Of a stretch of DNA of 64,000 nt, positions 11,640-44,425 are shown one piece after another (positions within the stretch are counted from its first letter, which is position 1; every line of letters begins with the position of its first letter). Made by a program: the position numbers and the translations under genes. Source of the DNA: Lamellibrachia satsuma (Eukaryota > Annelida > Polychaeta > Sabellida > Siboglinidae); the NCBI GenBank assembly GCA_033239005.1, contig BSQZ01000130.1, forward strand, positions 218,501 to 282,500, written 5' to 3'. The notes under the pieces are model-generated. The model did not search any database and was not told where the DNA came from. It saw nothing but the letters and a program-made list of their open reading frames with translations.

Positions 11640-13497
11640 TTGCGTAGACATCAGGTAGAATGCTTCTACGGCGTTAAGTGAGTCATATGAAATACACAGG
11701 TATTTCTCACTTGCATTGCCTCTGTATGGTGCTAGATGAGTCATGAACACACATATTTCCCACTTGCTGTGCATATGTATGGTACTTGATGAGTCATGAA
11801 CACACGTATTTCCCACTAGCTATGCATATGTATGGTGCTTGATCAGTCATGAACACAAGTATTTCCCACTTGCTTTGCATATGTATCGTGCTTGATGAGT
11901 CATGAACACACGTATTTCCCACTTGCTCTGCCTATGTATGGTGCTTGATGAATCATGAACACACGTACTGCCCACTTGCTATGCCTATGTATATTGCTAG
12001 ATGAGTCATGAACACACATATTTCCCACTTGCTGTGTCTACATGTGTAGTGCTATATGAGTCATGAACACACGTATTTCCCACTTGCTATGCATATGTAT
12101 GGTGCTAGATGTGTCATGAACACACGTATTTCCCACTTGTTGTGCCTATGTATGGTGCTTGATGAGTCAAGAGCACATGTATTTCCCACTTGTCATGCCA
12201 CTGTGTGGTGCTAGATGAGTCATGAGCACACGTATTTCCCCCTTGCACAGCCTATGTATGGTGATTGATTAGTCATGAACACACGTATTTCCCACTTGCT
12301 CTGCCTAAGTATGGTGCTAGATGGGTCATGAACACAGGTATTTCCCACTTGCTATGCATATTTATGGTGCTTGATGAGTCCTGAACACACGTATTTCCCA
12401 CTGGCTGTGCCTATGTATGGTGCTAGATGAGTCATGAACACACGTATTTCCCACTTGCTGTGCCTATGTATGGTGCTAGATGAGTCATGGACACACGTAT
12501 TTCCTACTTGCAAAGCCTATGTATGGTGATTGATGAGTCAAGAACAGACGTATTTCCCACTTGCCATGCCACTGTGTGGTACTAGATGAGTCATGAACAC
12601 ACGTATTTCCCACTTGCTGTGCCTATGTATGGTGCTAGTTGAGTCATGGACACACGTATTTCCCACTTGCTATGCCTATGTATGGTGCTTGATGAGTCAA
12701 GAACAGACGCATTTCCCACTTGCCATGCCACTGTGTGGTGCTAGATGAGTCATGAACACACGTATTTCCCACTTGCAAAGCCTATGTATGGTGCTTGATG
12801 AGTCATGAACTCACGTATTTCCCACTTGCTATGCCTATGTATGGTGCTAGATGAGTCATGAACACACGTATTTCCCACTTGCTGTGCCTTTGTATGGTGC
12901 TAGATGAGTCATGAACACACGTATTTCCCACTTGCTGTGCCTTTGTATGGTGCTAGATGATTCATGGACACATGTATCTCCCACTTGCTCTGCCTATGTA
13001 TGGTGCTAGATGAGTCATGAACACACGTATTTCCCACTTGCTATGCATATGTATGGTGCCTGATGAGTCATGAACACATGTATTTCCCACTAGCTGTGCC
13101 TATGTATGGTGCTTGATGAGTCAAGAACAGACGCATTTCCCACTTGCCATGCCACTGTGTGGTGCTAGATGAGTCATGAACACACGTATTTCCCACTTGC
13201 TCTGCCTATGTATGGTGCTAGATGAATCATGAACACACGTATTGCCCCCTTGCTATGCCTATGTATATTGCTAGATGATTCATGAGCACACGTATTTCCC
13301 ACTTGCTGCGTCTGTGTAGGGTGCTAGATGAGTCATGAACACACGTATTTCCCACTTGCTGTGTCTATGTGTAGTGCTAGATGAGTCATGAACACACGTA
13401 TTTCCCACTTGCTATGCCTATGTATGGTGCTAGATATGTCATGAACACACGTATTTCCCACTTGCTCTGCCTATGTATGGTGCTAGATGAGTCATAA
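11640..13497. repeat. 53-bp satellite array, about 35 monomers
   Basis: Monomers read GTGCTAGATGAGTCATGAAC followed by ACACGTATTTCCCACTTGC and a variable ending (TGTGCCTATGTATG, ATGCATATGTATG and others). Spacing is 53 bp (for example 12421 to 12474). Divergence between monomers is roughly 5-15%. A distinct variant with CCATGCCACTGTGTGG recurs at about 12186, 12560, 12720 and 13146. Most monomers contain TGAGTCA. No ORF persists through the array. Confidence 0.97.
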
Positions 13498-13989
13498 TGC
13501 TGTGCCCGATTTGTTAAAACGACTGAGTATAATGCCGGCTTCTAGTCATGAATCAAGCGCAAACAAACACATTCCAAAATTACTTTCAATCCAAAGAGCA
13601 GCATGGTGAGCAAATTGGAATGTATCCCTCTTCCAAAGGTCGTTAAGGGTTTCTCTCACATTTGCATGTTTGTTACAAACTCTTGCGCAGCCGATCAAAA
13701 CTTGATGATGACTATATCTATTTTGTAAATTCAAGTAGGTGACTATACATACCGAATTGGAAGAGTTCCGTTTGTTCCCGTTAGTCAGCTCTAGAACACA
13801 CCATTGGCAGGCTAAGAGTCTGAAACGAAACAAATGTGATCAGTAGATTACACAAATCTCTGGTGGGGCGGAATGTGGGACACCGCCGTAGCCAATCAAA
13901 CGTCTGCACACGTACTAAAATGACACATTCTTACATGTTATACAGTTCCTCTTCTGGTCATTTAGGCATTGATGCGTCTTGTGCCAGCT
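13498..13989. other. No recognisable feature
   Basis: A 95-codon minus-strand ORF (13546-13833) has no domain I recognise and no neighbouring signal; I regard it as unsupported. Confidence 0.35.
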
Positions 13990-20649: not shown

Positions 20650-20890
20650 TCTACCGATAACCCGACTAGTCACCGATATCCTCCAGTTGTCGGGACACGT
20701 GAACTAGTAAACAAATGTACTCCTGTCGGCGGGATATGTGACCTAGTTGGAAAAAATGTATACCCGCTAGATGATCCCGAATTGCATCGTAAAAAGGGAA
20801 TCATGCCCAAAACATGCCCAAACTCTCCAATAGAGAAAGTTGGACTAGTTTACAAATACACCCCGGTCGGCGTGAAACGTGAACTAGTTC
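20650..20890. repeat. Degenerate ~39-bp tandem repeat with ACTAGT core
   Basis: Units such as TGAACTAGTAAACAAATGTA CTCCTGTCGGCGGG recur with spacing near 39 bp at about 20660, 20700 and 20739, and again near 20845-20890, with CTAGT and GTCGGC as the most constant parts. A 103-codon ORF across the block is explained by the repeat rather than by a gene. It abuts the left end of the large transposon. Confidence 0.55.
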
Positions 20891-20898
20891 GAGAGAGC

Positions 20899-21224
20899 GT
20901 TGATATACCAACCAATGAAAACGCGAAGATAGTTACGCGTTGAATTAAATAGTAACGCGTTGATATACCAACCAATGAAAACGCGAAGATAGTTACGCGT
21001 TGAATTAAATAGTAACGCGTTGATATATCAACCAATGACAACGCGAAGAAAGTTACGCGTTGAATTAAATAGTAACGCGTTGATATATCAACCAATGACA
21101 ACTCGTTTAGCTACGCATCAGATGGTGAACCAATGCAAGTTAGTCTTAGTTACGCATCATGAACAACAAACGGCGGTAATTTACAGTAATAGGACTATAT
21201 GTACGTACGAAAATAGCTATACGC
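20899..21224 (+). repeat. Left terminal inverted repeat with 60-bp subterminal array
   Basis: About 3.5 units of exactly 60 bp (20955, 21015 and so on) read ACGCGTTGATATACCAACCA ATGAAAACGCGAAGATAG followed by TTACGCGTTGAATTAAATAG. Each unit holds ACGCGT twice, a CCAAT box and the palindrome GTTGATATATCAAC or its one-base variant. From 21109 a unique 115-bp part matches the right arm in inverted form, apart from a 14-bp insertion around 21193-21206. Confidence 0.93.
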
Positions 21225-21255
21225 TGGCCACATCCCGCTCAACGTACATTAAGAA

Positions 21256-24200
21256 ATGCCCCCTCGCCGCATCCAAGGAGCACAAGAGCGCATAGAGAGA
21301 AATTCTAATTCGGCGTTATTCCTGACAAGATTTAAACGTACAGTCGATGACTGCCTCCGCCTTGCCACAACCGACCACCTCCCGGCTTCAACTCGAGCAG
21401 CATGCATAACCCGGTAGGTATCAATGGCTTCATTAATCCTTTTGTCAAGTTTCCGCATACCGTTTCGTTTTGGGGGACCAATTGGCTGTATAACACTGTA
21501 ACGTAGACCGTTTGTTTTAAATGCGATCACTCAAAAATGCAAACGTCAGATGCACAAAATCAGACAATTAATGGTCTCGGTGACTACTTTTACACCACAG
21601 CTACAATGTTGTTTTTTGGTCAAGGTCTTGTCAGTTATGTAGATAAATGAAAATGCTAATAATAAGGCAATATAAATGTCATAATGTAATTACTAATGCA
21701 ATGTAAAATCTATTCATATATATTCCTAAATGTAAGTTGTTCTCTTAAAGATTGGAAGCACTAGAAAGGCATACAAGGAGGGCAAATGGAACATTGTTAC
21801 AAGAGAATGCTGCCCAGCAATTACTGGAGTTGCTGAGGCCAATTAAAGAAGAGTTTAAGAAAGGAAATGGTGAAGACCAAGGTAAGACAGCAAATTAAGT
21901 TAATTTTAATATCGTACACAAACTACTCAATGTGCATTGCATGGTCTCACAGACTTAAATGCTATGCATATTGTTTCGTGAATTGAAACAGCACAAAATT
22001 GCTAAATCATCTAAAGAAACTACTTTGCCATTAGAGCCGGAACGATACACGGGTGTTACCTTGTCCACGTCATAAATAAACGTGTTTTACTGTTGTTGTA
22101 TCATTCTAGTCAGTGCAGTCTGTATCGCGATATGTATCGTATCGTGAACTCTGTACAGCTATACGTATCGTATCGTGAAGCAGTGTATCGTTCCGGAAGT
22201 AATTGCTATGTAAGCTCACTTCCATATCAACCGTATCATCACACTCATTATTTCAAGTGGTTGCATGGTAATCTGCTGTTATGCTTGTATGTTGCAGTGC
22301 GGCGCGGTTACCATTCTGAACGGACGGAGGCACCAAGATCAACGCGAGGTGCCCCAAGATTTGCCATCACTAATCAACAGCTTAGTTTCTTGGTCCAATG
22401 TGGGTTTACTGCACCACGCATGAGTCAGCTGCTTTGCGTCTCTTTAAGGACTGTTAAACGGAGGTTAAGGTAACTAATATTAGTTTGACTATATGCTTAA
22501 TTTGTTTCCGCTATGTATTTCCAAGAATCATCTGTATTTGGGGTAGTTGTTTAAGCCACTATCACTTTAACTTAATGTCATATTCAGAGTCATTTTGTTT
22601 AGTATTTGAAATTACATTATTATCTAGCAGTGAATCTGTTTCAAAATAACTACTGCCAAAACCTACTCCCTACTGCATATGGTATTTCTGACTTATATTT
22701 GTATAAAAAGCTATCCTGTGCCAATTGGATACTGACATAAAGCACATATCAGTTCATGTCACACTAGATAATAATAATATATACGCCTTTGAGAAAAACA
22801 AAATGCATGGGTATATCCTTATTTTATTTTTAAAGAAATAACTGGTCTTAACAAAATTAGTAATTTCACTTTAAAATTCTGCATGACCATTCAATGTTTT
22901 GTTATTGGAAATGCAGTGTGAAACCTTTAAGAACTCACTGATTTTATGCACCGGTCATTGTATTATGTCTAAAGTCATAGGTGGCATTTGAACAATGTGT
23001 CATGCTTCTTACTTAGTCCTTCATTCAACTTATAATTGTGTGGTTCTGTGACTTGTGTACTACATAATTATGATGTCGATATAAAAAAAGTTGTAAATAA
23101 ATTTCAGAACATTTGGCTTGAGCCTCAGGGGAGGATTCACTCGCATGTCTGATAATGAGCTAGACCGAACCGTGAAGAACTGCATTGGTGAGAATCAGCG
23201 AATTGGTCCAAATGCAGTAAAAGCAAGACTATTCTCGCAGGACATCAATGTGCAGAGGTGGCGGGTGCGAGATAGCATGATGCGTGTGGACGAAGGAGGC
23301 ATTGCTCTCAGAGCTGCAATGACCATTCAGCATCGCACATATGCTGTTGCTGGCCCTAACTCTGTCTGGCACATAGACGGCAACCATAAGCTAATCAGGT
23401 AAAAAATCATTTAATGACATGGTTAAAATTAGTAAAATGCTGCTTTGTTATCACATATTTAGCTTTTCGAAAAAATTGCTAGGTAATGCCATGTCATTGC
23501 ATGACATAGTACACCTTGCAAATTCATATGGCAGAAATATAGACAACATAAAAGAACCAAATGGCAATTTTAGTTTATATATAGGAGGAAAACCGTACAA
23601 TGGTGTAATGAAAGTGTTGTATTAGTCAAGACCTTGTCTGATTAATAGCATGGCATTGTATATTACTATCCTTGTAAATGCACAACTACAAACAGTGGCA
23701 ATTTGAGTTGTTATGAACATCATGAACACAATACATTGGTACAATACTGCTACTAAAGAACTACTAAATAACACCATGAACACAATAGATTGGTACAATA
23801 CTGCTACTAACTAACTACTAAATAACACCATGAACACAATAGATTGGTACAATACTGCTACTAACTACTAAATAACATCATGAACACAATACATTGGTAC
23901 ACTACTGCTACTAAATAAAGTAACACAGTAATTCTAAATTGAAAGAGATAAATCTTTATGCAACATTACTTTTGCAGGTGGAAATTCGTGATTCATGGAG
24001 GAATTGATGGATTCAGTCGTTTGCTTGTTTTCCTGCACGCCTCCTCTAACAACAAGAAATGCACAGTACTGAAGCACTTTCTCACGGCCACAAGCACATA
24101 TGGTCTACCCTCAAGGGTGCGTGTTGACCATGGTGGAGAAAACAATGACATCTGTGATTTGATGGAGTTACTGCGAGGAAGAGGAAGAGGATCTGCAATA

Positions 24201-24722
24201 AAAGGAACTAGTGTGCACAATCAGCGCATCGAACGGGTTTGGGTAGACACCTGGAATGGGGCCACCAATTTATACTATGATCTTTTTCACTTCCTTGAAG
24301 ATCAAGGTTCTCTTGACATCAATAATCAGCAGCACTTGTGGGCACTGCGTTATGTATTTCTGCCCAGGATTAATCGCGAGTTGCAGGCCTTTGTTGCACA
24401 GTGGAACAATCATGGCGTGAGAACTGAACACTACCAGACGCCATTACAGCTGTTTGTAGGGCGCAGTCTGGAGCTCGCCAACACAGACCTGACAGCCGTG
24501 CATGACATGTTCAGGGAGTCAGACAATGTGTCTACTTCAGGAGTAGTAGATGAGATCGAGTGGGATGAGTCTGGGACAGTGGACGTAGGTGAAGTGCCAT
24601 GTCCAATCTCTGACCAGGCATTGCAGAGATTGCAACAAACAGTTGATCCGCTATCTGACTCTCCAGAACTTGGCATTGATCTGTACATGCAAGCCTGTCA
24701 CTTTCTAGCAGACAATGTGTAG
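21256..24722 (+). CDS. IS3-like DDE integrase/transposase, five exons, intact
   Basis: Exons: 21256-21413, 21751-21881, 22298-22469, 23108-23398, 23978-24722; all introns are GT-AG, phases agree, total 1497 bp, 498 residues without an internal stop. The start ATG lies 32 bp inside the left inverted repeat. Residues 110-155 form a helix-turn-helix ('FLVQCGFTAPRMSQLLCVS'), followed by a charged linker. The rve/DDE core has D244 ('HIDGNHKL'), D301 ('RVDHGGEN') and E336 ('NQRIERVW'), with 34 residues between the second D and E. The conserved 'WKFVIHGGIDGFSRLLVF' block follows D244. Similar multi-exon integrase-core proteins occur in fish and marine invertebrates. Expected role: binding the inverted ends and cutting and joining DNA in the nucleus. 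The C-terminal 100 residues are acidic and unassigned. Confidence 0.9.
23714..23925. repeat. 50-54-bp tandem repeat in integrase intron 4
   Basis: About four units containing ATGAACACAATAGATTGGTA CAATACTGCTACTAA recur with spacing of 54, 54 and 50 bp. The array lies in the last intron of the integrase gene, ending about 50 bp before the 3' splice site at 23977. Confidence 0.9.
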
Positions 24723-25206
24723 TATGAAATGCATCACTGCTATTTCTAGGTCACTGGGGCAATGTGTCAAATTAACAATTGAGTAGCCGATTCAACATGT
24801 TCCTTAACAATAGTTATTAGTCAATCTGCACCTGGTGGTTAAAGGTGTCTAATTATACACTGCATGCTGGTAGAAGTCATAAATAAAGGTATGGCAATGA
24901 TCAATTTCCAATAGCTTTTGATTACTTTTTGAATAACTTTTTTGTGACTTTTTTAATCCAATTATATAATCTACAAAAAAATCATAACAAACCATTATAG
25001 TTAAAAAGTAACACGGTACCCCCAGTTTTTATTATTTAGATTATTCTACAAACAATTTGCCATATCTATCCGCAAAAATAACACTCTAATAACATTATAT
25101 TAATCAATAGGTTTACTTTCCACTTTAGCTAGAAAGAAACATGTTATGACAGTGAAATCTGATGTGATGTAAACACCAGAAGACGACAGATCTGCACACG
25201 GATTCG
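24723..25206. other. Intergenic space between convergent genes
   Basis: AT-rich sequence separating the two convergent stop codons. An AATAAA (24881-24886, in CATAAATAAAGG) could end the integrase transcript. I see no equally clear signal for the HECT transcript and no other feature. Confidence 0.5.
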
Positions 25207-28200
25207 TCACACCATGTTAGTTTCATACGCAGATCTGTCATTCAATAAGTGAAACCACTCCCGTTTCATTTCTGCCCTTGAGGTATAGGATGTGGGCAGC
25301 TCTACTAGTGGCCCACACATATGGACCCTAGGCAAACGGGACAAACCTGTTGCCTGGAAAAAAGCTACCTTTATATTGTCCTGTGGCATCATCTCAGAGC
25401 CAGTGACATAGAGCAGGAAGTCAGCCAGCTCCTCGGGCTCCATCGCTCGGACTATGGAGCAGAACATATGGAGAGCCCGCAGGTCTTCTGCTCTCATCAT
25501 AGCTTCATTTTCAGCAATGATGCATGCCGCGACTGCTGCTGCAGTTGGTCGCAGTTTAACATACATAACTGTCACCTTCTCCACAGTCAACTGGGAGAAG
25601 AACAAGGCAGCAAATTCTTCTGGAATCCCCTGCCTCATCCTCCTAATGAATTTGGCTGGCCTCTCCACCAGCACCTCGCGCGCAATTGTGAGGAGATCCT
25701 CATTCAGTGTACCGTTGGTTGGTCTTCGCTGTAATGAAAATATTAAATTAAGAAAACTACTCTCACACAGAGAATAATGCACTGAATACTTGTCTTCGAG
25801 AATCAATCTATACAGGTGTACATGTGTATTTGATTACTAGTTGCCACATAATTGAATCATTGCACATTTTTGCTAAATAATCATATTCAAATAATTTCTA
25901 TAAAAATTACTTTTCTTAGACACACACCAGTTAATTATTATTTAGACTATTAATAAAATTCACTTAGAAAACATTTACATAAAAATAATTGTTATCCACA
26001 AATTCACTTGAACAACCATGAGTTGAACATTACATTAAAAAAAATCAAGACACCCAGTGGAGAGATTTAGTTATACGTCTGTTACCATGAGAATGGTCTG
26101 ATGGAAACAAGTTCCATATTTAAATTGGTATTGTTATGTCTTAGCCTATTTATGGCACCTACAAACTTACCTGCATCCCATACAGAGCATAGAAATTCAG
26201 GAGTTCTTCCTGGTCACTGTCACTGAGGTCGCTGAAGCTTCCCAGTGCACGTGTCAGCAGTGCCCTGTCGTCTTGACACAGGTACAACATGAAGTCTGGC
26301 AAGAGTACCTCATCAGACACCTCGTCCTCTCCAAAGGCAATTTGGAGCAGGGTGCAGCGACATAGCCGTGGAGGTACCTGATGCAACAAGGCAACAGTGT
26401 GGCAAAGAAGACGACCAACTTGGATAAACTTCTTCTCATCTGCCCTTGATCGATGTAGGGGCAGATATGGAATTGCATAATCTTCACCGGTGAAGTAGGG
26501 CCGAAAAACTTCTGCCCAAGTCATTGTTAGAAACTCCTTTGTCAACCCTCCAAAGTCCAGGCCATCTTCTCCGATAAACGAAACTTTCAATCACTTTGTC
26601 AGAACGGTTGGGGTGTCGTACACATGTAGAAATGTGGATGGTATGTCATTCCTATGAAGAATGACTTCTTCATCCGTGTACTGAACAAGATCAGCGACTG
26701 ACTGAAAGGCTGAAACAGTAATCAGTGAAATGGGTACATTCCGAGTCAAAGCGAGACACTGCAGCTCGATAGGATTTTTTTGCATAGCTAGTGCATTTTT
26801 TTCTGCCCAAACTGTAGAGTGGGTCTTACCGAGTAAAACATATATTTAACCTTTTTCTGCCGGACCCGCATTTCCATGGTAAAAAAAAATGGCTGCCATT
26901 TTGAACAAATGTTGGCAAATTGAGAATCAATGCCATTTTTTAAAAATATATCATTATAATTTACTTAATATAACTTACAGGCAGTAACTTCACTCCACAG
27001 TTCATCTTCTTGCTGTGGCTGCATCTCTGTCACTGGATCATGTGCTGTCCTAAACTGAACCTGTGTAAACCAAAACTGGACATTTACAAAAGTTCTTACA
27101 AGAAAAACATGCACATTAAAGAAAAGTTTCATAAAGAGCCTTTTATCTAGCTGTATCCAACCAGCAACAAAAGATGTTGTCTTCTGCAGTTTCATGCTTA
27201 AAAAATATCCAATTGTACCTGAAAATTACAATGTGACTGTGCCAATACTGACATAAAAAAATTAGTGATGTTCTGTCATTGTGGTAATTGATACTTACAG
27301 TAGGAGTTCCAGCGTCAACGAAAACTGCATGTGATGTAAAATCTGTTGTCTGCAAAAAATATATACATGTCTAAAATTTCTCGAATACATTGGCAAAATA
27401 TATGTGGGAAAACTTTTCAGGTGTATCGAAGCGAATTACATAACATACATACATTTTGTGGGATACATATAGGACATACAGAATGGCACAAAGTGACAAA
27501 AACAATTAATCTGAATAATTACCTGTAGTGCTTTATATATGCATCATAATTATATTAGCAAAGATACATGTTCTAATATAAGCATCATTCAATGTAATAC
27601 AACTATATATACCATGGTCTTACTTAGAAAGTGGCTTTACAGGTCAGACAATGATTCTAAAACTACAGGGCACTTTTTCATAGTCTGACAAAGAGCATGT
27701 TTTGCAACTGTATTTATAATTCATACAATGTGAATGTTAATTTCATTAATTATTAATTTATTAATGAATTTGGGCATTTGAAATATAAAATGTTTGGGGG
27801 TTGCAATCAAATGCATGCCCTCTGTTGAGTCTGCATTAAATTTGTTAGCTATTGCACAAATAGAACAATTTTAAAGTAAATGTTTGTGTTATGCAATCAA
27901 ATGCACTGAAAATGTAACGACTACATATAAATGTGCATGGCTACTGCATACCATCCAAACTGTGCATTCAAAAGCATTTGCATTTGTTAACAAGTCTGCT
28001 ACAAAATAATATTTAAATGTTATATTACTGATTATCATTTTACTTAAATATATTTGATATATTATCAGATCACGATATGAGTGAAATTTCCAACATAAGT
28101 TTTCGCTATTGACTCTTGGAGTAAAATATATGCTGGTTATATTGCATTAATTATTTCTGATGCTAATAAACTACTAGAGCTAGGATACGATGTAAAATAT

Positions 28201-31200
28201 CTGATCCAAGCATAATTTACAGTAATCAAGAACACATGATTATTCAGCATAAGTGTAATCTTTGTTCAGCACACTTTGATTTTAAAATACTGTCAGTGGG
28301 TGTGCTCTGTAAATGTATGCCTGATGTGGGATTAAGATATAGGTCAGTCTCCTATGACATAACACTTGTGACACAGATGCAGTGAGACCACACTCTCAGT
28401 GCCACAGTGGTCTCATTAAGGGTCTGTTAATGAGGGTTATGTGAGGGTCACCAGTTAGTTTCCACATCTGGATAATCTAGTACCAGGGTGGTAGTAGAAG
28501 CTGTGCTGCTTATAAAACTAGTAGGAAATACATGATAAAGAAGACTTCTGGATGATTTGACTTGTATCCTGTTCATTCCATGAGACAAAAGGTAAGAATG
28601 TTGTCCAGGCATATTTTTTATAGCAATTTGAAATGTGGCCCGGCTACGCAATAAACACAGTGAGTACATTTTATGTGCAGCAGCCTGGCTGTTTGAAAAA
28701 TGGCAGTTTGCATTTACTTTACTGTGCCAGTAGTCCCCTCTTATAAGGTCACCCGTTCTGTAGAGGTATAAGGGCTGTAATGTGTGTTTTGGTGTGCGTT
28801 TGGTGTTTAAATCCGTGACCTTGCATGTTTCAATATATTGCCATGAAATGACAAAAGTGAGCAAGTGACGATGTTTTTTTAAATATTGGACAAAACATAT
28901 TTTGGTTTGCTCTCTTGTGCATATTACGGAACAGTAATTGTACACCATTCTTTGGACTATTTTACTAAGTGTATTTATAAAAATTATTAGTATTTTTTTG
29001 TGACATGGTTATTTGTTGACTTTGTGTCACTTGCTCCATTTCCTGAAAATTGGTTGATTTAACAAGGAATGACCTTACTGAGTATGAGAGCTGCAGACTG
29101 ATTGCATGGCTGTCGCAATAACACATGATGCTATTGGTCACACACTTACTCCCTTTTCTCACAATAAAACACTAATCCATTGTCACTTGCTCCTTTATGC
29201 TATGTCATCTGTAGAAAATCTGCCGTCTAAAAGGTTTTATCATGTTAAGGTGAGACACGGCAGCTCGGTGGGATTTTTTTGAAATTTGCATAGTTAGTGT
29301 AATTTTTTCATGCCAATTTGTAGAGTGGGTCATACTGAGAAAAAATATATTTAACTTTTTTTTGCCAGACCCCCGTTTCCATGGTAACAAACAAAATGGC
29401 CATGTTTTATTGAACAAAGATATCATTATAATTCTTGCAGAATCAAATTAAGTATGCTGTCTATTACACTGCCACCAGAAAATATTATTAAAACAAAAAT
29501 TGTTTTATTTCATTTTTATTTATTTGTAATTTCCAAAAAATATACTTATTTTTTGGCTAAATATACTTGTATAACTTTCAAACTTTTGATTATTTGTATA
29601 ATGTAATCTGGTGGCTGTCTAGAGAAGAATAAGCTGGATACAACATTCCAAAGTTTGTTTTTATTAAAACAAGAACATTATTTTTAGCAGTGTGTATGCA
29701 CAAAGTGACAACTGTGTATACGTGTATATCATAAATACACAAGAAGATATTTAGACACATGCTATACAGGTACACATAAACAAATTTGACAATTTCTCAC
29801 CCATTGCGCTTCATCAGACACATCACCTGCAGTGGAAGTAGACGCCACAGGAGTGACTTCTTCAGCTGATGGCTCTGGTCGCTGTTGAAAATAAATAAAT
29901 GAAAAACTAACAAATACAGTATTTAAATGTACATAGTTTCTACGAATTGCTTCAAAAACAATGTTTATATGATGTAACAAACATTCAGTTATGTTTTGTT
30001 ATACACTGAGCAGAACCAAATAATGTTTAACTTAGTAGAACTTTAATACATACTGTTATAGTGGCAGTGCTCGTATTTCTTCTCCGGTAGCGATGGTGGA
30101 TGATAGAAGGCATCTAAAAATCATTGTAGTCTGCATTCAGAAATACCTAACAAACACAAAAAACACATTGCTATTATGACGTTTTGATTGGGAGAAAATA
30201 TTGCCTACAATGTGTTATAAAATGTATTCTATATATAAATGACCGTATAATTTCCCTTAATTTATATGCACAGGTTATGCATTCATAAGCATGTTTACGG
30301 GAGACCTAGTTATTATTTTTTTACTTTATTTTTTAACTTAGAAAGCTGAATGTCTCGGGGAATGTGAATAATTAAAAAGTAAAACTGGGAGATTTGTTTT
30401 ATTGTGGGTCGTTCCCATGGAAATGGTGGCCATTTTGGTTTTTCAAGGTGTTTCTTGTACCTTGGTATCCATGAAATGCATTGAAAATTGGTTTGTCACT
30501 TGAATACATCTACCTGCACATGGCCATAGGGAGTTTTGTCCAAGAATATACAAACAAATTTGAAGAATACACTCTCCTTTGTCATTGGCTAGTCGACTGT
30601 ACACATAAATTAATTTTGACAATTTCTCACCTGGTGTGCCTCAGCAGATACACCACCTGCAGTGGACGTAGATGCCACAGGAGGGATTTCTTCATCTGAT
30701 GGCTTTGAACAAACCAAGAAAATTTATGTGAAAAAAATTATATTTAAATATATGACAAATATCAAGTAACAACACTTACTGTTTCTGCATACTGCAAGAC
30801 AAAGTTATGTACTTAAACATATGCACAAAGTGACAACAACTGTGCATATCATATATGTACATGAAGACATTTACACATGCTATACAAGTACACAAAAACA
30901 AATTTGACAATTTCTCACCCGTTGCGCTTCATCAGACACATCACCTGCAGTTGAAGTAGACGCCACAGGAGTGACTTCTTCAGCTGATGGCTCTGGTTGC
31001 TGTTGAAAATAAATAAATGAAAAACTAACAAATACAGTATTTAAATGTACGTAGTTTCTACGAATAACTTCAAAAACAATGTTTATATTATGTAACAAAC
31101 ATTCACTTATGTTTTGTTATACACTGAGCAGAACCAAATAATGTTTAACTTGGTAGAACTTTAATACATACTGTTATAGTGGCAGTGCTCGTATTTCTTC

Positions 31201-34200
31201 TCCGGTAGCGATGGTGGATGATAGAAGGCATCTGAAAATCATTGTAGTCTGCATCCAGAAATACCTAACAAACACAAAGAACACATTGCTATTATGATAT
31301 TTTGATTGGGAGAAAATATTGCCTACAATGTGTTATAAAATGTATTCTATATATAAATGACCGTATCATTTTCCTTAATTTTATATGCACAGGTTATGCA
31401 TTCATTAGCATGTTTAGGGGAGACCTGGTTATTATTTTTTTACTCTATTTATTAACTTAGAAGGCTGAATGTCTCGGGGAATGTGAATAATTAAAAAGTA
31501 AAACTGGGAGATTTGTTTTATTGTGGGTCGTTCCCATGGAAATGGTGGCCATTTTGGTTTTTCAAGGTGTTTCTTGTACCTTGGTATCCATGAAATGCAT
31601 TGAAAATTGGTTTGTCACTTGAATACATCTACCTGCACATGGCCATAGGGAGTTTTTTGTAAGAATATACAAAACAATTTGAAGAATACGCTCTCCTTTG
31701 TCACCCTCAGGACTGGGCCAAAGTGATCTGATTAGTGAGGTGACCGTATTAGCAGGACTAATGTCCGATATTTTACTGTTATGGATATCATTTGGGAATA
31801 TCCCACGATGACCATATTTACAAGGTAACCTTATTATTTCTCACCTGGTGTGCCGCAGCAGATACATCACCTGCAGTGGACGTAGATGCCACAGGAGGGA
31901 CTTCTTCATCTGATGGCTTTGAACAACCAATGAAAAAGTTATGTAAAAAAATTATATTTAACTATATGACAAATATCAAGTAACAACACTTACTGATTCT
32001 GAATACTGCAAGACAAAGTTAGGTACTTAAACATATGCACAAAGTGACAACAGCTGTGCATATGTGGATATCATATATGTACATGAAGACATTTACACAC
32101 ATGCTATACAAGTATACATATAAAAACTAATTTTGACAATTTCTCACCTGTTGTGATTCTTCAAACACATCACCTGCTGTGGAAGTAGATGCCACAGGAG
32201 TGACTTCTTCAGCTGATGGCCCTGGTCGCTGTTGAAAATAAATAAATGAAAAATATATGAAAAGCATGGAATGTCAGTGTAATTTATATGAATAACTTTT
32301 TATGTTTAAAACTATGTGATTGAATTTGACACTTTCTCAACCATTGTCTTTCTGACAGATACATAAACTGTGAATGAAACAGCTAGCAACTGATGATTGT
32401 GATTGTTGTTGATATTAAAGAAACATAAATGACAATTATTATTGGTGTTATTTACACCACATACCATTGTTAGTGAACACTATTTACTAACAGACAATTA
32501 TGTTTGTTTGTATGTATACCAGACAATTACAGTACGTTAACTTACTGGCAATAACCTCACATACAGACTAGATCTCTTCATTCCACCCCATTCCTTAATC
32601 CTCTGTGGATTGTCAATATTTGGTGGCAGTGTCACCAACCTGAGCCCTTCAGATGCTGGACAGCACCTGCAATGTTAATTAAATGCAAGAAGGATAGTAA
32701 GATGCTACGTTAGTACTTGAGTACTTCATTGAGTCATTTTAACCTGAACAAAGCTTACATGCAACTAGGCGTGCACCAGTTTAACATATGCTTACTGCCA
32801 CCTACTTAGTAACATGCATGTTTAACTCTTCTGAAGTTGCATGTTATGCTAAATATTGGTTACATACTCACTAGTCTTATCCTCTTCATACTGTAGTTGG
32901 CGCATAAGGCCACGGATACTGATTGCAACATTATTAATTAAATTTGCATGGTAGTCAAATACGTGTATTTCTTATATCTAACGTAGCATCTTCAACTAAA
33001 CAACTGAATTACTTAAATATGATTCATAATGCTATCACATAATGTTTGAAGATACCTGCACAACTCAAATGCCCCTTGAATCTGTGGGAATGCCGCCTTC
33101 AGCTGCTCCACAAAGCTGTCTTGGCTCGCATTCAAAGTAAATTTAATCTTAGTTTGTGCATACGTCGGATCTGTAATACACACATTTTATAATGTAATAT
33201 TGTTGCCAAAAGCAGTTTTTGTTTAATCAGTAATAAGCTTAGCCTTCATTTACTGGCATACTTCATCTGTGACACTGTGTTTAGTGCACAGTTTACACTG
33301 TAAAACATACACTACATTGTGACTAAACTGCAATTTGTGCTTCATGATTAAACACTGTCACTGTCACTGACTCTGAATATAAAAAAACAGTGTTGTTCTT
33401 AGCAAGTAATTACAATTTTAGACAATGGATAAACTTGATTTAATCCTATAAGTTAAGTCATTGCTTAATGCTAACTAACTCCGACAAACTATCCATTCTT
33501 TGTGCACCAAAAAATAACCAGTACAGTACAGCGGAACTAAGATGAAACGACAAATAATGTCTTTATTATCAAACCTGCTTCTCCGACTCGGTGTCGTTTC
33601 CTTCGGAAACGTATGTTTCCTGTTCCTGCCGCAACAACAACAACAGAAACTGTCCACGTTTTCCGGCCACGATTAATTTGACCAGTCCTGGTCCTAGCTG
33701 GTGGAATGTTTCGGAATCGCTGAAATCTAGAAAAAATTGACTTTATAGTACGCAACGCGATAACGTTTATCAGCCATTGCCGGCGTTCACCAACTTCGTG
33801 CATGCAATGTCTGCTGGGTAATTATGACGCTGCATGCCCTAGATAAGGGTGTCCACCGATAACTAGGGAATAGTGGAAAAAGACAACCAAAGCAGTGCGG
33901 CAGTACAATAATTACACTATATGATACTATGAATCAGTATTTATGCCGGTAAACCATACGGGCCGTTGCCACACTCGGGCAGCGACACGATATTTTAGCT
34001 CCACAAGGCACAAATGGCAATATTCCGTTATATGGTAATGACGCACACGCACGCACGCACGCACGCATGCACGTACACATGTGTATGAGTGTGTTGTACA
34101 CCCATACATGGTTTCCATGAACTAACGCTGAAATAATTGGCGTTCGAATGCTTGGTTGTGGAGTATAGGGGGTCAATACAAGTCTAGAATAGAATTAAAC

Positions 34201-34404
34201 TGGTAACTGTAACATCGTGATCGTCGTCAATAAAGAATATGTAGACAGGTCTACTATAACAAGCCTAGCTAGGCCTACTTACGCTTCTACAACATTCCCA
34301 TTACGGACGGTAGCTCCGGCCGGCGTGTTTTCATTCTCACTTTGGAGGTTTCGAACGATGGTATGCGCTCGGTTGACTAAAGTCTGCAATCGCCCAATAT
34401 CCAT
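25207..34404 (-). CDS. HECT-domain E3 ubiquitin ligase, 18 exons, one in-frame TGA
   Basis: Minus-strand exons: 34404-34283, 33726-33575, 33170-33056, 32918-32868, 32666-32546, 32228-32148, 32005-31994, 31916-31845, 31231-31172, 30999-30919, 30791-30780, 30702-30631, 30113-30054, 29881-29801, 27349-27299, 27060-26979, 26709-26171, 25728-25207. All have AG/GT borders and agreeing phases; total 2286 bp (762 codons with stop). Residues about 430-761 are a HECT domain: 'FIGEDGLDFGGLTKEF' is the N-lobe signature, and C726 in 'LPRVHMCGPLVELP', 36 residues from the end, is the expected catalytic cysteine. The N-terminal 190 residues resemble the variable front part of G2E3-like HECT proteins of fish. 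Codon 448 is TGA (26591-26593), just before the HECT signature, so this copy is probably dead unless read through or spliced around. Expected role: ubiquitin transfer from E2 to a substrate; its use to the transposon is unknown. Confidence 0.82.
26591..26593 (-). other. In-frame TGA inside HECT exon 17
   Basis: The frame reads 'TPTVLTK', TGA, 'LKVSFIGEDG'. Both sides are in the same phase and the downstream part is the start of the HECT fold, so the TGA is a point mutation (a CGA Arg codon would be one base away) rather than a true gene end. Confidence 0.85.
26750..26960 (-). repeat. Intronic repeat, copy 1 (paired with 29250-29440)
   Basis: The segment containing TAGAGTGGGTCTTACCGAGT and CATTTCCATGGTAA is repeated at 29250-29440 in the same orientation at roughly 80% identity. 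It overlaps HECT intron 16. Part of the same motif set (CCATGGAAATGGTGGCCATT) also appears at 30416 and 31535 inside the duplicated exon units. Confidence 0.75.
27350..29800 (-). other. Large HECT intron (between exons A1 and 15)
   Basis: 2.45 kb intron with no coding features I can support. ORFs at 28448-28948 and elsewhere lack splice support. It contains the intronic repeat copy at 29250-29440. Confidence 0.55.
29801..32228 (-). repeat. Tandemly duplicated cassette-exon array of the HECT gene
   Basis: In transcript order the exons are A3, micro2, B2, C2, A2, micro1, B1, C1, A1. A exons (81 bp) encode variants of 'PSAEEVTPVASTSTAGDV', B exons (72 bp) 'PSDEEVPPVASTSTAGDV', C exons (60 bp) 'MPSIIHHRYRRRNTSTATIT', and microexons (12 bp) YAET or YSES. 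Every exon begins and ends in phase 0. The genomic unit repeats with a 1118-bp offset (A1 to A2) and 1229 bp (A2 to A3), introns included. The A and B products are acidic, Ser/Thr/Pro-rich and probably disordered; C is basic. Confidence 0.85.
34045..34078. repeat. (CGCA)n microsatellite
   Basis: ACGCACGCACGCACGCACGC tract of about 30 bp in the first HECT intron or leader flank. Confidence 0.9.
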
Positions 34405-34810
34405 CGCTGAGTTATTCACTTTTCACCAATTCAGAATTTCCGTTGGAGGCTGGTAGACCCTTACTGACCAGCGAACAATTTTTCATTTCTTGCATACCAA
34501 ACTGTCAAGGCGTGCCCGGTCTGAGCACAGGATATCAGTTTCAAGTAAAGTGATATTCACTTCAATGCATTCCATTGTTTGAATGACTTGAAACCATATA
34601 AAACAAACAGAGAATACGAATATGAAACATAATAACTTTAATATGAAACATAGCTTGAATTGTGGGGTCTAATGTTTTTTAAGATAACGATTATTCACAT
34701 GAAACGTACAACACCCATATGTTACATTGAATAAAGACAGCAACAAACGATAGCCATTTGTGTATGTTTTCCAACGTTGTATGCTTACATTGGGCAGTAT
34801 GTTGCCACCT

Positions 34811-35294
34811 ATTTTCGTACGTGTTACTGTAAATTACCGCCGTTTGTTGTTCATGATGCGTAACTAAGACTAACTTGCATTGGTTCACCATCTGATGCGT
34901 AGCTAAACGAGTTGTCATTGGTTGATATATCAACGCGTTACTATTTAATTCAACGCGTAACTATCTTCGCGTTGTCATTGGTTGATATATCAACGCGTTA
35001 CTATTTAATTCAACGCGTAACTATCTTCGCGTTTTCATTGGTTGGTATATCAACGCGTTACTATTTAATTCAACGCGTAACTATCTTCGCGTTTTCATTG
35101 GTTGGTATATCAACGCGTAACTATCTTCGCGTTTTCATTGGTTGGTATATCAACGCGTTACTATTTAATTCAACGCGTAACTATCTTCGCGTTTTCATTG
35201 GTTGGTATATCAACGCGTAACTATCTTCGCGTTGTCATTGGTTGATATATCAACGCGTTACTATCTAATTCAACGCGTAACTATCTTCGCGTTT
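34811..35294 (-). repeat. Right terminal inverted repeat with 60/40-bp array
   Basis: Inverted copy of the left arm. The array has about 6.5 units: 60-bp units begin at 34921, 34981, 35041 and 35141, and 40-bp units at 35101 and 35201 lack the internal TTACTATTTAATTCAACGCG segment. Outside 35294 the sequence changes at once into the gag region of a Gypsy-like element. The longer arm shows that the array has expanded unequally. Confidence 0.93.
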
Positions 35295-35317
35295 ATGGCC
35301 CTAACGGCCTGCCATAC

Positions 35318-36310
35318 TTACCTCGCTTGTGACACCTGAGGCGCAACCCCGTTTCCCGACGGCTGAGAATGTATGTTGCGCAGTCGACAAACACGAGCAT
35401 AATGTCCAAGTTTCCCACAATGGAAACACGATATCGTCCGGCGGGCGGCGTCACGAGGCTCGCGTCTGTCGTTCTCACTGCCAGGCGTCGGCATGTAGCG
35501 ACGGGTGGTTGTCGGCGGGGGGCGTGGGTCGTGTCTGGCCTCGATCTTCGCCAGCTTCGTTGCCAGCTTTTGAACCATGGAAGCCAGTGAGTCGACCATC
35601 GCAACCAGGGGGTCCGTTGTCTTGCAGCTGGAGACGTTGGCGGCTCCTATTTCCATCGGCGATTCGTGTCGTCCCAGGCGGCTATACGCGTCATTACGTT
35701 CACAGAACCGTATAGTTGATCTAATCGCTTCGTCAAGCGAAGCAGGCGCTGCCTGTTCGATCAGCTGTCGTGCGAGGCTATCAGATGTTAACCCTCGGGC
35801 AAATGTACGGATCAGAACGGATTCTTGGTCGGGATTTCGTAAGCCGCTTGGGTAGCAAATGTCACTAATGTCTCGGAAGCGTCGGACAAACTGTTGCGTT
35901 GGTTCGTACGCGCTCTGACGCACCTTGTCAAGTTCGTCACGTAATGCTGCGGTTTCGTCGATCTTAAGAAAGTTGCTAGCCAAATGATCACGGAAGTCTG
36001 GCCATGGAATGGCGGCTCGGCCGATTTGATTTGCCGCTATTGTTCTTTCGATGAAACGTTCCAACTCAAATCGGAGCGGACCAGAGACAGTTTTAGCCGC
36101 TATTTCGATGATGCTGGCTGCACCGACTTGATTAAAAGCTAAAGTAACTTCACGGATCCAATTACGTACTGCCGATGTAGAGGAACCATCACAAGTATGT
36201 GTTTGTCTGATTAAATCACGTATTTGTTCATGGGTGGTTTGGATAGCACGACGTTCCGTTTCCTGCTGAACAAGTCCGATCGTATAGTTTTGAAATTGTG
36301 CTGGATCCAT
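35318..36310 (-). CDS. Gag of Gypsy-like element 1
   Basis: An uninterrupted 330-residue minus-strand ORF. Residues about 20-250 are helical, capsid-like ('AVRNWIREVTLAFNQVGAAS', 'RDHLASNFLKID'). Residues 295-308 form a CCHC zinc knuckle (C-F-H-C-x4-H-x4-C), which binds RNA in retroelement Gag proteins. Two related, damaged copies lie at 47146-49055 and 53150-54040, giving the family assignment. The element's 5' LTR lies upstream at 36748-37630. Nothing of protease or pol follows: the sequence meets the transposon's right inverted repeat 23 bp after the stop, so the element is truncated. Confidence 0.88.
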   Translation of the reverse strand: MDPAQFQNYTIGLVQQETERRAIQTTHEQIRDLIRQTHTCDGSSTSAVRNWIREVTLAFNQVGAASIIEIAAKTVSGPLRFELERFIERTIAANQIGRAAIPWPDFRDHLASNFLKIDETAALRDELDKVRQSAYEPTQQFVRRFRDISDICYPSGLRNPDQESVLIRTFARGLTSDSLARQLIEQAAPASLDEAIRSTIRFCERNDAYSRLGRHESPMEIGAANVSSCKTTDPLVAMVDSLASMVQKLATKLAKIEARHDPRPPPTTTRRYMPTPGSENDRREPRDAARRTISCFHCGKLGHYARVCRLRNIHSQPSGNGVAPQVSQAR

Positions 36311-36578
36311 CGTGTGTGTGTGCTTTGATCGTCACGCAGCAAATACACGTTTTACGTAGTAAAAGTCAATCATGGAGTCAGTCATCACTGTCAGTTTCAC
36401 GTTGGCTCAGCGCCAATGTACGTCTGAACGAAGTTATAAGTAAAAAAAAATCGTAGTTGGTGTGCCATACGGTACGTTGAAACGACGTACTTTACATTCT
36501 GTTATTCGGTGGTGGTTCGTCATCGTCGTGACAGTGCACACAACGTCAATGGTTCTTTGGAAAGTCTCTGGACACTAG

Positions 36579-39613: not shown

Positions 39614-42148
39614 TTAGTCCTCTTCGTGCCCGGTGGCACATAAGGCATCGACAAGAGAGCGCCACTGCTGTCGGTCTGCAGCCCATTTGGTGATGTTGTT
39701 CCATGTCAGGCCGCATTCTTTCATCTCCTTCACCACTGTACGTCTCCATATTTCTTTTGGGCGACCACGTCTCCTTTTTCCATCTGCTGTCCAGCGTAAG
39801 GCTGTCTTGGGCAGTGCGCCAGGTGACATTCGGCACACGTGTCCAAGCCATCTCCATCGTCTCTTCTTTATCTGTGTGGCCAAGGCTGTTGCATCTGTTT
39901 TGCGGTGCAGCTCTTCATTAGTGATGGTGTTGGGCCAAAATACTCCTAGGATCTTCCGTAGACACTTGTTTTGGAAGGTTTCAAGCTTGTGTGCTAGCTT
40001 GGCTGTCAGTTTCCAGCACTCGGAGCCGTAGAGAAGTACACTGAGAACATTACTATTGTACAGTCTCAGTTTTGTTTCCAATCTCAGTTGCTTGGATTTC
40101 CAGATGGGCTTCAGCATAGCGAAGGTCTGACTTGCCTTTCTGATCCTAGCCGTGGCATCTTTTGCAGAGTCTCCATCTGTTGTGATTTTGCTTCCCAGGT
40201 ATGCAAAGTCCTGAACGTCTTCCAAAGCCTCACTGTTGTTTATGTTGTTTATGGTGATGGGGTTATCTGTCTTGTTGTTGATCCTCATCAGTTTGGTTTT
40301 TGCTGTGTTGAGCTTTAACCCAATCTGTGGTGCTGTTCTTGTGAGTTTGTCCATCTTTTCTTGCATGTCCTTGTGCCTGTTAGACAGCAGTCCAATGTCA
40401 TCTGCATAGTCCAGGTCTTCCAAGATCGAGGTAAGTGTCCATCTGATTCCTCTGTTTCCATTTTTGGTGGTTTCTATCATCAGCCAGTCGATGGCAAGGG
40501 TGAAAAGAAATGGTGAGAGAATGCATCCCTGTTTTACTCCAGATTTTACGCTAAAGCTGTCTGACATGTGAATGTTACAGGCGAGTTGACACTGGACGTC
40601 TGTGTAAAGTATCTTGATCACATTTACCATCTTCTGTGGGATCCCGTAGTGACGTAATATTCTCCACAGGGATTCTCTGTGAAGGCTGTCAAAGGCCTTT
40701 TCAAAGTCAATGAAGGCAATGTAGATCGTACTGTTCCATTCCGTGCTTTGTTCCAAAATCTGCCGTAGCGTGAAAATGTGGTCGATGCATGACTTTCCTC
40801 TTCTGAAACCGGCTTGTTCCTGGCGGAGGATTGTATCTGTAGCTGCTGATATTCTCTTCAGGATTATGCGGCTGAAAATCTTGCATGTCATTGATAACAA
40901 GGTTATGCCCCGCCAGTTGTTACAGTTCCCCAAGTCGCCCTTCTTTGGTAGCTTGATAATTGTGCCTGTCTTCCAATCATCTGGTGTGTTTTCTTCATCC
41001 CATATTCTCTGGAAGATCTGGCAGAGGATTCTGGGTGTTTCTTTTTCATCTGCTTTCAGCATTTCTGCGCAGACGCTGTCGCTTCCTGGTGCTTTTCCAT
41101 TCTTCTGGGCTTTAATGGCTTCTCTGACTTCTGCTTCAGTGATTTGGTCGAGGGTGATTTCAAGGTCATCTGCTGCCTCCGGGATGTCTGCAAGTCTGGG
41201 TGGATCTGCACGATTGAGAACCTGTTGGAAATGCTCCTTCCATCTCTCTATCTTCTCTTTCTCGACTGTGATTATCTTTCCATCTGCATCTTTCAATGGG
41301 AGATTCTGGTTTGTACCTGTATCTCCTTTCTGCTTCTTGGTTACTTGGTAGAGTGACTTCATATCCTTTCTTCTTGCTGCTGCTTCTGCGTCTTCTGCGA
41401 GGTTTTCAATGTAAGTTCGTTTGTCTACTCTGGTACTCCGTTTTGCTTCTTTGTCTTTTTGTGAGTATTCTCTTGAAAGTCTTTCTTTGAGTCTTGGGGA
41501 CTTTGTGGTGAGCAGATTTTTCTTTATTCCTTTCCTTTGGTCTATTTTGTTCCAAGTTGATGTGGAAATCCACAGCTCTTTCTTTGCTCTTCTGTGGCCT
41601 AGCACTGCTTTCCCTGCTAGCTCCATGGCCATGTTGAAACTGTGTATAGTCATCTCTGTTTCCTCCTGCAGAATATCAAAACTGTTCTTCAGAGCAATTG
41701 TGAACTGTTGCTTGGTTTCTGGGTTTTGTAGCTTGGTGGTATCAAATCGCTCTTTCTTCTTCTCTCCTACCTTTGCCTTTCTCAGTTTCAGTGCAAGTTT
41801 TCCTATCAACAGGTCGTGGTCGCTGCCAGCATCAGCTAGTCTCCTTGTGTTGACGTCTTGTAGAGAGCGTCTCCATTTTCCATTAACAAGGATGTGATCT
41901 ATTTGACTCTCAGTTCTGCCGTCTGGGGATCTCCATGTCAGCTTATGTATTGTCTTATGTTGGAAGAGTGTCCCTCCAATCACGAGGCCATTCTCCCCAC
42001 ATATGTCACACAATCTGCTGCCGTTATCAGTCATTGTACCTGTTCCGTGTTTGCCCATGATCCTTTCCCTGTTAGTGTTGTCGCTCCCAACTCGTGCATT
42101 GAAATCTCCAAGAACCACTAGTACGTCGTGTTTGGGGATGTCTTCCAA
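39614..42148 (-). CDS. Endonuclease-reverse transcriptase (ORF2) of RTE-like LINE, main part
   Basis: 844 codons open. It starts in the second half of the AP endonuclease ('VLVVLGDFNARVGSD', 'SDHDLLIGKL'), then a linker, the RT domain from about residue 340 ('FIDFEKAFDSLHRE', 'GVKQGCILSPFLFTLAIDW', 'LDYADDIGLLSN'; YADD active site intact) and a C-terminal domain with 'RRWRWLGHVCRMSPGALPK' and 'GRPKEIWRRTV'. This order and C-terminus are typical of RTE/Proto2-type LINEs of invertebrates. The true N-terminus lies upstream, at 42277-42765, with 'GCWNVRTLYQTGRLAEVL', separated by one frameshift and one stop. The enzyme copies its own RNA into a nicked genomic site. This copy is nearly intact and therefore young. 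Confidence 0.92.
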   Translation of the reverse strand: MEDIPKHDVLVVLGDFNARVGSDNTNRERIMGKHGTGTMTDNGSRLCDICGENGLVIGGTLFQHKTIHKLTWRSPDGRTESQIDHILVNGKWRRSLQDVNTRRLADAGSDHDLLIGKLALKLRKAKVGEKKKERFDTTKLQNPETKQQFTIALKNSFDILQEETEMTIHSFNMAMELAGKAVLGHRRAKKELWISTSTWNKIDQRKGIKKNLLTTKSPRLKERLSREYSQKDKEAKRSTRVDKRTYIENLAEDAEAAARRKDMKSLYQVTKKQKGDTGTNQNLPLKDADGKIITVEKEKIERWKEHFQQVLNRADPPRLADIPEAADDLEITLDQITEAEVREAIKAQKNGKAPGSDSVCAEMLKADEKETPRILCQIFQRIWDEENTPDDWKTGTIIKLPKKGDLGNCNNWRGITLLSMTCKIFSRIILKRISAATDTILRQEQAGFRRGKSCIDHIFTLRQILEQSTEWNSTIYIAFIDFEKAFDSLHRESLWRILRHYGIPQKMVNVIKILYTDVQCQLACNIHMSDSFSVKSGVKQGCILSPFLFTLAIDWLMIETTKNGNRGIRWTLTSILEDLDYADDIGLLSNRHKDMQEKMDKLTRTAPQIGLKLNTAKTKLMRINNKTDNPITINNINNSEALEDVQDFAYLGSKITTDGDSAKDATARIRKASQTFAMLKPIWKSKQLRLETKLRLYNSNVLSVLLYGSECWKLTAKLAHKLETFQNKCLRKILGVFWPNTITNEELHRKTDATALATQIKKRRWRWLGHVCRMSPGALPKTALRWTADGKRRRGRPKEIWRRTVVKEMKECGLTWNNITKWAADRQQWRSLVDALCATGHEED

Positions 42149-42276
42149 AATTTACTGAAGACTGTCATAGAAGTTATCTTTTTCTTCTTTTTCTGCTTCC
42201 TCTGTATGTGCGTAACAGGTTACCACTGAGAGTTTGATAAATCTGGACTTAAATCTAGCATAAAGAAATCGTTCAG

Positions 42277-42824: not shown

Positions 42825-43376
42825 CTAGAATATGGAACAACTGTTGTAAGGGAGTCTCATCGTGATGGTTGGATATCCTCCGAAGATGTGGTTCAATCAC
42901 TGGCAAGGCGTCTGCGATGTCCCAGTGGTTCCCTGTGACTGGCACTGCTGTTGCTGCGTTGACAGTGGCTGGCATGGTGGTTGTTTCGTTGACAGTGGCT
43001 GGCATGGCGGTTGCTGCGTTGACGGTTGCTGGCATGGCGGTTGCTGCGTTGACAGTGGCTGGCATGGCGGTTGTTTCATTGACAGTGCCTGGCATGGTGG
43101 TTGCTGTTTTGACAGTGGCTGGCATGGCGGTTGCTGCATTGACAGTGGCTGGCATGGCGGTTGCTGCGTTGACAGTGGCTGGCATGGTGGTTGTTTCGTT
43201 GACAGTGGTTGGCATGGCGGTTGCTGCGTTGACAGTGGCTGGCATGGCGGTTGTTTCATTGACAGTGCCTGGCATGGTGGTTGCTGTTTTGACAGTGGCT
43301 GGCATGGCGGTTGCTGCATTGACAGTGGCTGGCATGGCGGTTGCTGCGTTGACAGTGGCTGGCATGGCGGTTGTTT
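42825..43376 (-). repeat. 30-bp minisatellite, about 14 units, possible coding exon
   Basis: The unit (plus strand) GTTGCTGCGTTGACAGTGGC TGGCATGGCG repeats from about 42950 to 43375. A 180-bp higher-order period is visible (43071 and 43251 begin the same six-unit block). On the minus strand it encodes 'ATAMPATVNA' repeats within a 190-codon ORF, followed by a non-repetitive 'WDIADALPVIEPHLRRISNH' segment and a potential donor CTAG/GTTAGT at 42825; TTCTGCAG at 43377 could be the acceptor. Four other frames are also open across it because the period is a multiple of three, so openness alone proves nothing. Confidence 0.8.
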
Positions 43377-43406
43377 CTGCAGAACGCAAGTGGTCCCAAT
43401 TATATA

Positions 43407-43408
<2 letters not shown>

Positions 43409-43471
<63 letters not shown>
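43409..43471. repeat. (AT)n microsatellite
   Basis: About 60 bp of alternating AT at the boundary between the minisatellite and unassigned sequence upstream of the Gypsy element remnant. Confidence 0.97.
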
Positions 43472-44150: not shown

Positions 44151-44425
44151 CGGTCTGTCGTTACTGTCAGTATGGGCAGCAAGTCGTCTGCGAGTAGTGC
44201 CAGGAACCTGATGACGAATTGGCCGCGGATTGCACGAGTCCCAATTTTGTTCGGGGTTAACGATTCGACATTTTAGTTTAGCACTTTGGTTTTCCCTGTC
44301 TGTTGGTGGTGGAGAGAAATAACTGGCCCCTTACTCGGGTTACTGTCCAGTGTGGGTCCCACCTAGATGTTAGAGTCACTCTCGCTTCCGATTTAATAAT
44401 CACCGAATCTCCAGGTGAAATTTAA
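44151..44425 (-). pseudogene. Integrase C-terminal remnant, element 2
   Basis: Minus-strand fragments correspond to the better-preserved C-terminal block at 51696-52028 of the neighbouring element (shared features: a TRW/TRL-DP start, 'VTRV' and an N-P-E/R-x-K-W/L-type segment). Frames are broken. Confidence 0.5.

Follow-up and report, generated by a model that had tools for sequence, protein, structure and literature searches.

Results

Structure of the element and its ends

The window analysed here, i.e. the whole stretch of 64,000 nucleotides from the genome of the annelid Lamellibrachia satsuma (C130:218501-282500), contains two convergent genes between inverted arms, one encoding an IS3-like integrase and the other a HECT-type ubiquitin ligase, which together form a putative DNA transposon of the IS3EU kind. 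Positions without a contig label are those of the window, and labels starting with "C" denote contigs of the 735-Mb assembly (279 contigs) in which the genome searches were made.

The arms of the window copy (20897-21189 and 34824-35116) are inverse complements over 293 nt, with a single mismatch (99.66% identity by blastn; the repeat listing gave 100%), in agreement with the inverted arms at both ends described in an earlier sequence-only reading of this DNA. Their outer parts are built of 60/40-bp tandem units and their inner part is unique; a 48-nt arm unit occurs eight times in the window with at most three mismatches, compared with no occurrence in 100 shuffles. The left terminal inverted repeat (TIR; 20897..21189, plus strand), composed of tandem 60-bp units and the unique inner part, lacks its outermost end in this copy. 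The right TIR (34824..35316, minus strand) is complete, measures 493 bp and ends with ...GGCCTGCCATA, as established by comparison with the ends of other copies. Indeed, when the right end was queried with 300 nt of flank, six of the eight arm pieces from other copies ceased to match at 35316/35317, namely the left ends of C44, C57, C20a, C9 and C10 and the right end of C20a, the two remaining pieces stopping at 35307 (left end of C114) and at 35280 (a fragment in C10). Among six left ends (15 pairs), mean identity is 89% in the 60 nt inside the terminus versus 26% in the 60 nt outside it. The sole site of the terminal 29-mer in the window is at 35288-35316, on the minus strand; the right terminus of the window copy is therefore position 35316 (...CCATA) and its left end has been lost. 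Left ends of other copies reach further out than the left arm of the window, where no arm match was found left of 20897. The bounds formerly given to the element (20899 and 35294) had thus to be rejected: the right terminus lies 22 bp beyond the former bound, and the left one is missing from 20897 outward. The hexamer CTTACC that follows the terminus (35317..35322) is presumed to be the right target site, and its left partner is lost. CTTACC starts nowhere in 20701-21000, and no target duplication was found for the window copy, whose left end is lost.

A complete copy is present on contig C20 (C20:9821410-9834713, 13,304 bp), hereafter C20a. Both ends are preserved (TATGG..CCATA), the arms enclose both the integrase and the HECT gene, and a perfect 6-bp duplication, GTACTT, is found on both sides. 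In this copy the two genes form one unit between duplicated target hexamers. Matching arms therefore enclose both genes at another locus as well, which speaks for the earlier reading, and GTACTT is the only clean target duplication observed. Of the six left ends, those of C57 and C114 are variants, and the other four start with TATGGCAG. No arm was detected in the stretch fetched at the expected right end of C44, C57, C114, C32, C68 and C9, where it may be deleted, displaced by insertions or not reached.

These ends also allow us to weigh the view that the arms are unrelated satellite blocks that resemble TIRs, which their composition, largely of tandem units, might suggest. The inner arm is unique, and this view was rejected on the outer boundary common to other copies, the unrelated flanks beyond it and the GTACTT duplication; we regard it as scarcely conceivable.

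As a separate observation, two integrase-HECT pairs lie in opposite orientation about 10 kb apart at C20:8096162-8106952, possibly as nested or inverted copies.

The two convergent genes

Both gene models were made by hand, from sequence only and with prior knowledge of the exon counts (5 and 18) of the earlier reading. They agree with its description of two convergent multi-exon genes between the arms, with consistent phases and with start codons on the inner side of the 293-nt arms, at a distance of 67 nt for the integrase and of about 420 nt for the HECT gene (start at 34404).

The integrase/transposase gene (21256..24722, plus strand) comprises five exons (21256-21413, 21751-21881, 22298-22469, 23108-23398 and 23978-24722) and encodes 498 aa with no stop. 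The protein matches the Pfam family PF24764 (rva_4 integrase core) with E=8.2e-86 and PF00665 (rve) with E=1.8e-5, the latter under that family's cut-off. The Pfam scan reported only these two families and no zinc-binding one, i.e. an IS3/IS481-like DDE integrase core without an HHCC zinc domain. The catalytic residues are likely D244, D301 and E336 (DD34E spacing), assigned by motif and not by structure. No relatives were retrieved from viral contigs, whether these were scanned with the 53-aa first exon or with four integrase cores.

The HECT-type ubiquitin ligase gene (25207..34404, minus strand) was modelled in 18 exons with GT..AG borders in phase and 762 codons including the final stop. 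Its last exon (25210..25728, minus strand), which encodes the C-lobe, matches PF00632 (HECT) with E=3.4e-9 and 37.2 bits, above the curated cut-off of 23.9, over the end of the C-lobe only (profile positions 213-291 of 306); the whole model matches with E=1.7e-8. No other domain was reported for the modelled protein by the Pfam scan. The exon contains an HMCG motif that aligns with HTCF of AREL1, and the cysteine of this motif is presumed to be the catalytic cysteine of the HECT C-lobe. Like the HECT E3 ligases AREL1 and UBE3A, the protein thus has a C-lobe with an H-x-C region; it differs from them in that its C-lobe gives only weak sequence matches to the solved structures of these two ligases in the PDB (E 0.019-0.18). 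A single-sequence structure prediction of the C-lobe exon (mean pLDDT 42.8) was not used. Internal duplications, consisting of repeated Ser/Thr/Pro-rich exons, were revealed by repeat comparison at 29695..32253 (minus strand), and about 1 kb of this region (about 29559-30592) has no counterpart in the C20a copy.

The HECT frame of the window copy is interrupted by an in-frame TGA (26591..26593, minus strand). This codon is a sense codon in all four other copies read there (C44, C57, C20a and C114), which marks the window copy as damaged. In C44 and C20a, a stop is present at another place of the HECT exons, and no complete two-lobe reading frame was found in the window copy, C44 or C20a. As judged from its reading frames, the window copy could still encode the integrase, but no full HECT protein.

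Genome-wide pairing of integrase and HECT

In the genome, 142 candidates for PF24764 yielded 77 matches, and 47 candidates for the HECT C-lobe exon yielded 40; all candidates were scored and both numbers of matches are lower bounds. Once merged, these matches form at least 46 integrase clusters and at least 36 HECT clusters. An integrase cluster is found at most 8 kb away from 22 of the 36 HECT clusters, which pair with 22 of the 46 integrase clusters, and at most 1.6 kb away from 20 of them. The paired clusters are convergent in 22 cases out of 22, when random placement of HECT would give 0.037 pairs. The HECT gene is therefore not the single-copy gene that had been considered as an alternative: it is multi-copy and stands beside the integrase, convergent with it, at 22 places. 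As for the proposal that it is a fixed accessory gene of the element, the recurrence of the pair at these places supports it, but 24 of the 46 integrase clusters have no HECT match.

HECT could also be a host gene next to which an element inserted by chance, or one captured only recently. HECT relatives without a nearby integrase do exist (four in C3, three in C4, a pair in C10, one each in C96, C13 and C16, and weaker ones), and the protein of C3 shares about 52% identity with the HECT of family B (see below) and 36-40% with that of family A, to which the window copy belongs. Against this, 22 convergent pairs are observed for 0.04 expected, and matching inverted ends flank the gene pair in C20a as well as in family B. 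Chance insertion beside a host HECT gene is refuted by the pairing counts and the shared inverted ends, and this explanation as a whole appears very improbable to us.

The solo HECT groups deserve mention in their own right. Three of them, without nearby rva_4, have stop-free frames (C3:2320835-3240171, C4:14779576-14974937 and C10:2146782-2180837); in the C3 group of four, the frames measure 363-382 aa and contain no stops. Single HECT loci with open frames and no rva_4 in their vicinity occur as well.

Diverged families

Apart from family A, we distinguished three diverged families. In family B (C15), the two convergent genes are framed by inverted repeats of its own (313 bp, 97%), with the ends TATGACAG. 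Family C (C23, C50, C70 and C104) has the same integrase-HECT pair. Family D (C4:4696221 and C94) gave no HECT match, and its integrase core is 43% identical to that of A and 48-49% identical to those of B and C. Integrase cores are 56% identical between A and C, 52% between A and B and 46% between B and C (two of the rows were pieced together from exons), and HECT C-lobes 34-48% identical between families, over 65 residues only in two of the three comparisons. Five of the six divergent loci read have retained the cysteine motif H-x-C. The four integrase cores gave no clear order of HECT gain and loss. Integrase and HECT are paired in at least three diverged families (A, B and C), with integrase cores only 46-56% identical, and HECT therefore has the appearance of an accessory gene kept for long in certain IS3EU lineages but not in every one.

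Selection and the case for a HECT function

Within family A, pooled pN/pS is 0.36 for HECT exon 17 (5 rows), 0.31 for HECT exon 18 (11 rows) and 0.39 for integrase exon 5 (12 rows), the pooled pairs not being independent. When distinct changes are counted, HECT exon 18 shows an excess of silent ones (P=0.0074) and exon 17 a borderline excess (P=0.055); in integrase exon 5 the excess (P=2.9e-5) is obtained only with the divergent C45 row. Many copies are in decay, and the case for a function of the HECT gene is made chiefly by its long-term co-retention.

Taken as a whole, i.e. including the accessory role of the HECT gene, it is quite probable that the window contains a cut-and-paste DNA transposon of the IS3EU kind, in a damaged copy that is truncated on the left. 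Several observations weigh against this explanation. As regards selection, integrase exon 4 pools at a pN/pS of 0.82 (11 rows), has no excess of silent changes and shows no sign of selection within family A, and without the C45 row the integrase exons show no silent excess (P=0.9 and 0.4). As regards pairing, the matches behind the two most widely spaced pairs (C1, 4.2 kb; C213, 7.4 kb) are weak, more than half of the integrase clusters are those without HECT match mentioned above, the 8.5 kb that follow the C4:4696221 integrase downstream showed no HECT, and 14 of the 36 HECT clusters have no integrase nearby. As regards the copies themselves, many of those read in family A are broken, none of the copies read has both genes wholly intact, and a clean target duplication is seen at C20a only. 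Family B (C15) gives none, and for C23 (family C) the comparison of 4 kb upstream with 8 kb downstream yielded, among the matches listed, only simple repeats and no TIR. Finally, the divergent locus L036 has W in place of the presumed catalytic cysteine.

Some of these points would also be expected if HECT were a passenger captured in an ancestral element, without any help to transposition. Many HECT frames are indeed broken, that of the window included, and reference-frame stops occur in exon 18 in six of the 10 other copies (C44, C20a, C32, C20b, C68 and C9), some of which are partly covered; the 24 integrase clusters without HECT match point in the same direction. A passenger is nevertheless difficult to reconcile with the convergence of all 22 pairs, with its presence across families with 46-56% identical integrase cores, with the cysteine motif kept in five of six divergent loci and with the excess of silent changes in exon 18; moreover, a useless gene of 9 kb should vanish fast. 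We therefore consider the passenger explanation unlikely, and retain the HECT gene as a probable accessory gene of the element.

Comparison with known systems

IS3EU elements have been described with TA..TA termini and usually 6-bp duplications (PMC10045372). The present element resembles them by such termini (TATGG..CCATA in C20a, CCATA at the right end of the window copy), by its 6-bp duplication in the one clean case, and by an IS3/IS481-like DDE integrase with no zinc domain hit; the earlier assignment to IS3EU is thus consistent with both termini and duplication length. It differs from them by the HECT gene that accompanies the integrase, the words HECT and ubiquitin being absent from the main text of that paper. 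Fungal IS3EU elements with TET/JBP and alpha-kinase genes have ends of the form TAYGG..CCRTA (PMC12730594) and share with the present element these ends, the 6-bp duplication, TIRs of more than 30 bp, accessory enzyme genes and one accessory gene oriented opposite to the transposase. Their accessories are a methylcytosine dioxygenase and a kinase, whereas here a many-intron HECT-type gene is found in an element of 13-14 kb.

DNA transposons with ubiquitin- or SUMO-removing domains have already been described (PMC2836005). In these Ginger1 elements, as here, an integrase-type transposase is tied to the ubiquitin/SUMO system, and their authors propose that the proteases may act in transposition or help to activate repair. 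Ginger1 fuses removing proteases (OTU, Ulp1) to its transposase; here, no OTU or Ulp1 domain is fused to the 498-aa transposase and the gene, of the ubiquitin-adding kind, is separate and convergent. The Burro elements, giant Gypsy-like retrotransposons of planarians (PMC6431247), are also mobile elements and are reported to have extra ubiquitination-linked domains, carried by a retrotransposon polyprotein and not, as here, by a DNA transposon with TIRs. Our literature search found no paper pairing the words IS3EU and HECT. Among the titles and abstract openings listed, mostly those of the 15-20 best-ranked of 35-155 papers, it also found no precedent for a cut-and-paste transposon in which a ubiquitin-ligase gene recurs; with Repbase reports and the majority of subscription papers outside this search, such an element may already be on record.

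Proposed role of the HECT protein

From what is known of the family, the integrase would bind the repeated arm units, cut, and integrate the element at positions staggered by 6 bp. The HECT protein could be a standing accessory factor, made in trans, that ubiquitylates a protein limiting transposition. A host silencing or repair factor would be our first guess for this substrate. The second would be the integrase itself, cleared from DNA after strand transfer; DNA-bound transposase may need active removal, as in phage Mu. Such a ligase would work on the same ubiquitin/SUMO system as the Ginger1 proteases, from the opposite side. We tentatively suggest, as one possibility, that an old IS3EU branch has a ubiquitin ligase of its own that takes an active part in transposition, clearing either the integrase after strand transfer or a host silencing or repair factor, and that this ligase has been exchanged between hosts and elements, as the solo open HECT frames of C3, C4 and C10 might indicate. 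The gene pair offers a defined case for asking how transposons use the host ubiquitin system, and a possible link between the HECT gene of the element and solo HECT genes of the same genome.

Other features in the window

An open frame with Gypsy-type gag domains (35318..36331, minus strand; PF03732, E=6.5e-7; PF00098, E=1.8e-4) abuts the right end of the element and, by its position, is presumably the insertion target, outside the element. Further away, two ORFs are found at 39614-42151 and 44422-46671 (minus strand), the first with reverse transcriptase and endonuclease domains and the second of the Gypsy pol type. A 680-nt inverted repeat (47793-48472 / 49497-50176, 95% complementary, 1024 nt apart) is possibly a foldback or non-autonomous element. 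The window also contains a long tandem array with a 53-bp period and about 33 steps at 11616-13500, and two other arrays at 42845-43444 (30-bp) and 52124-52555 (48-bp).

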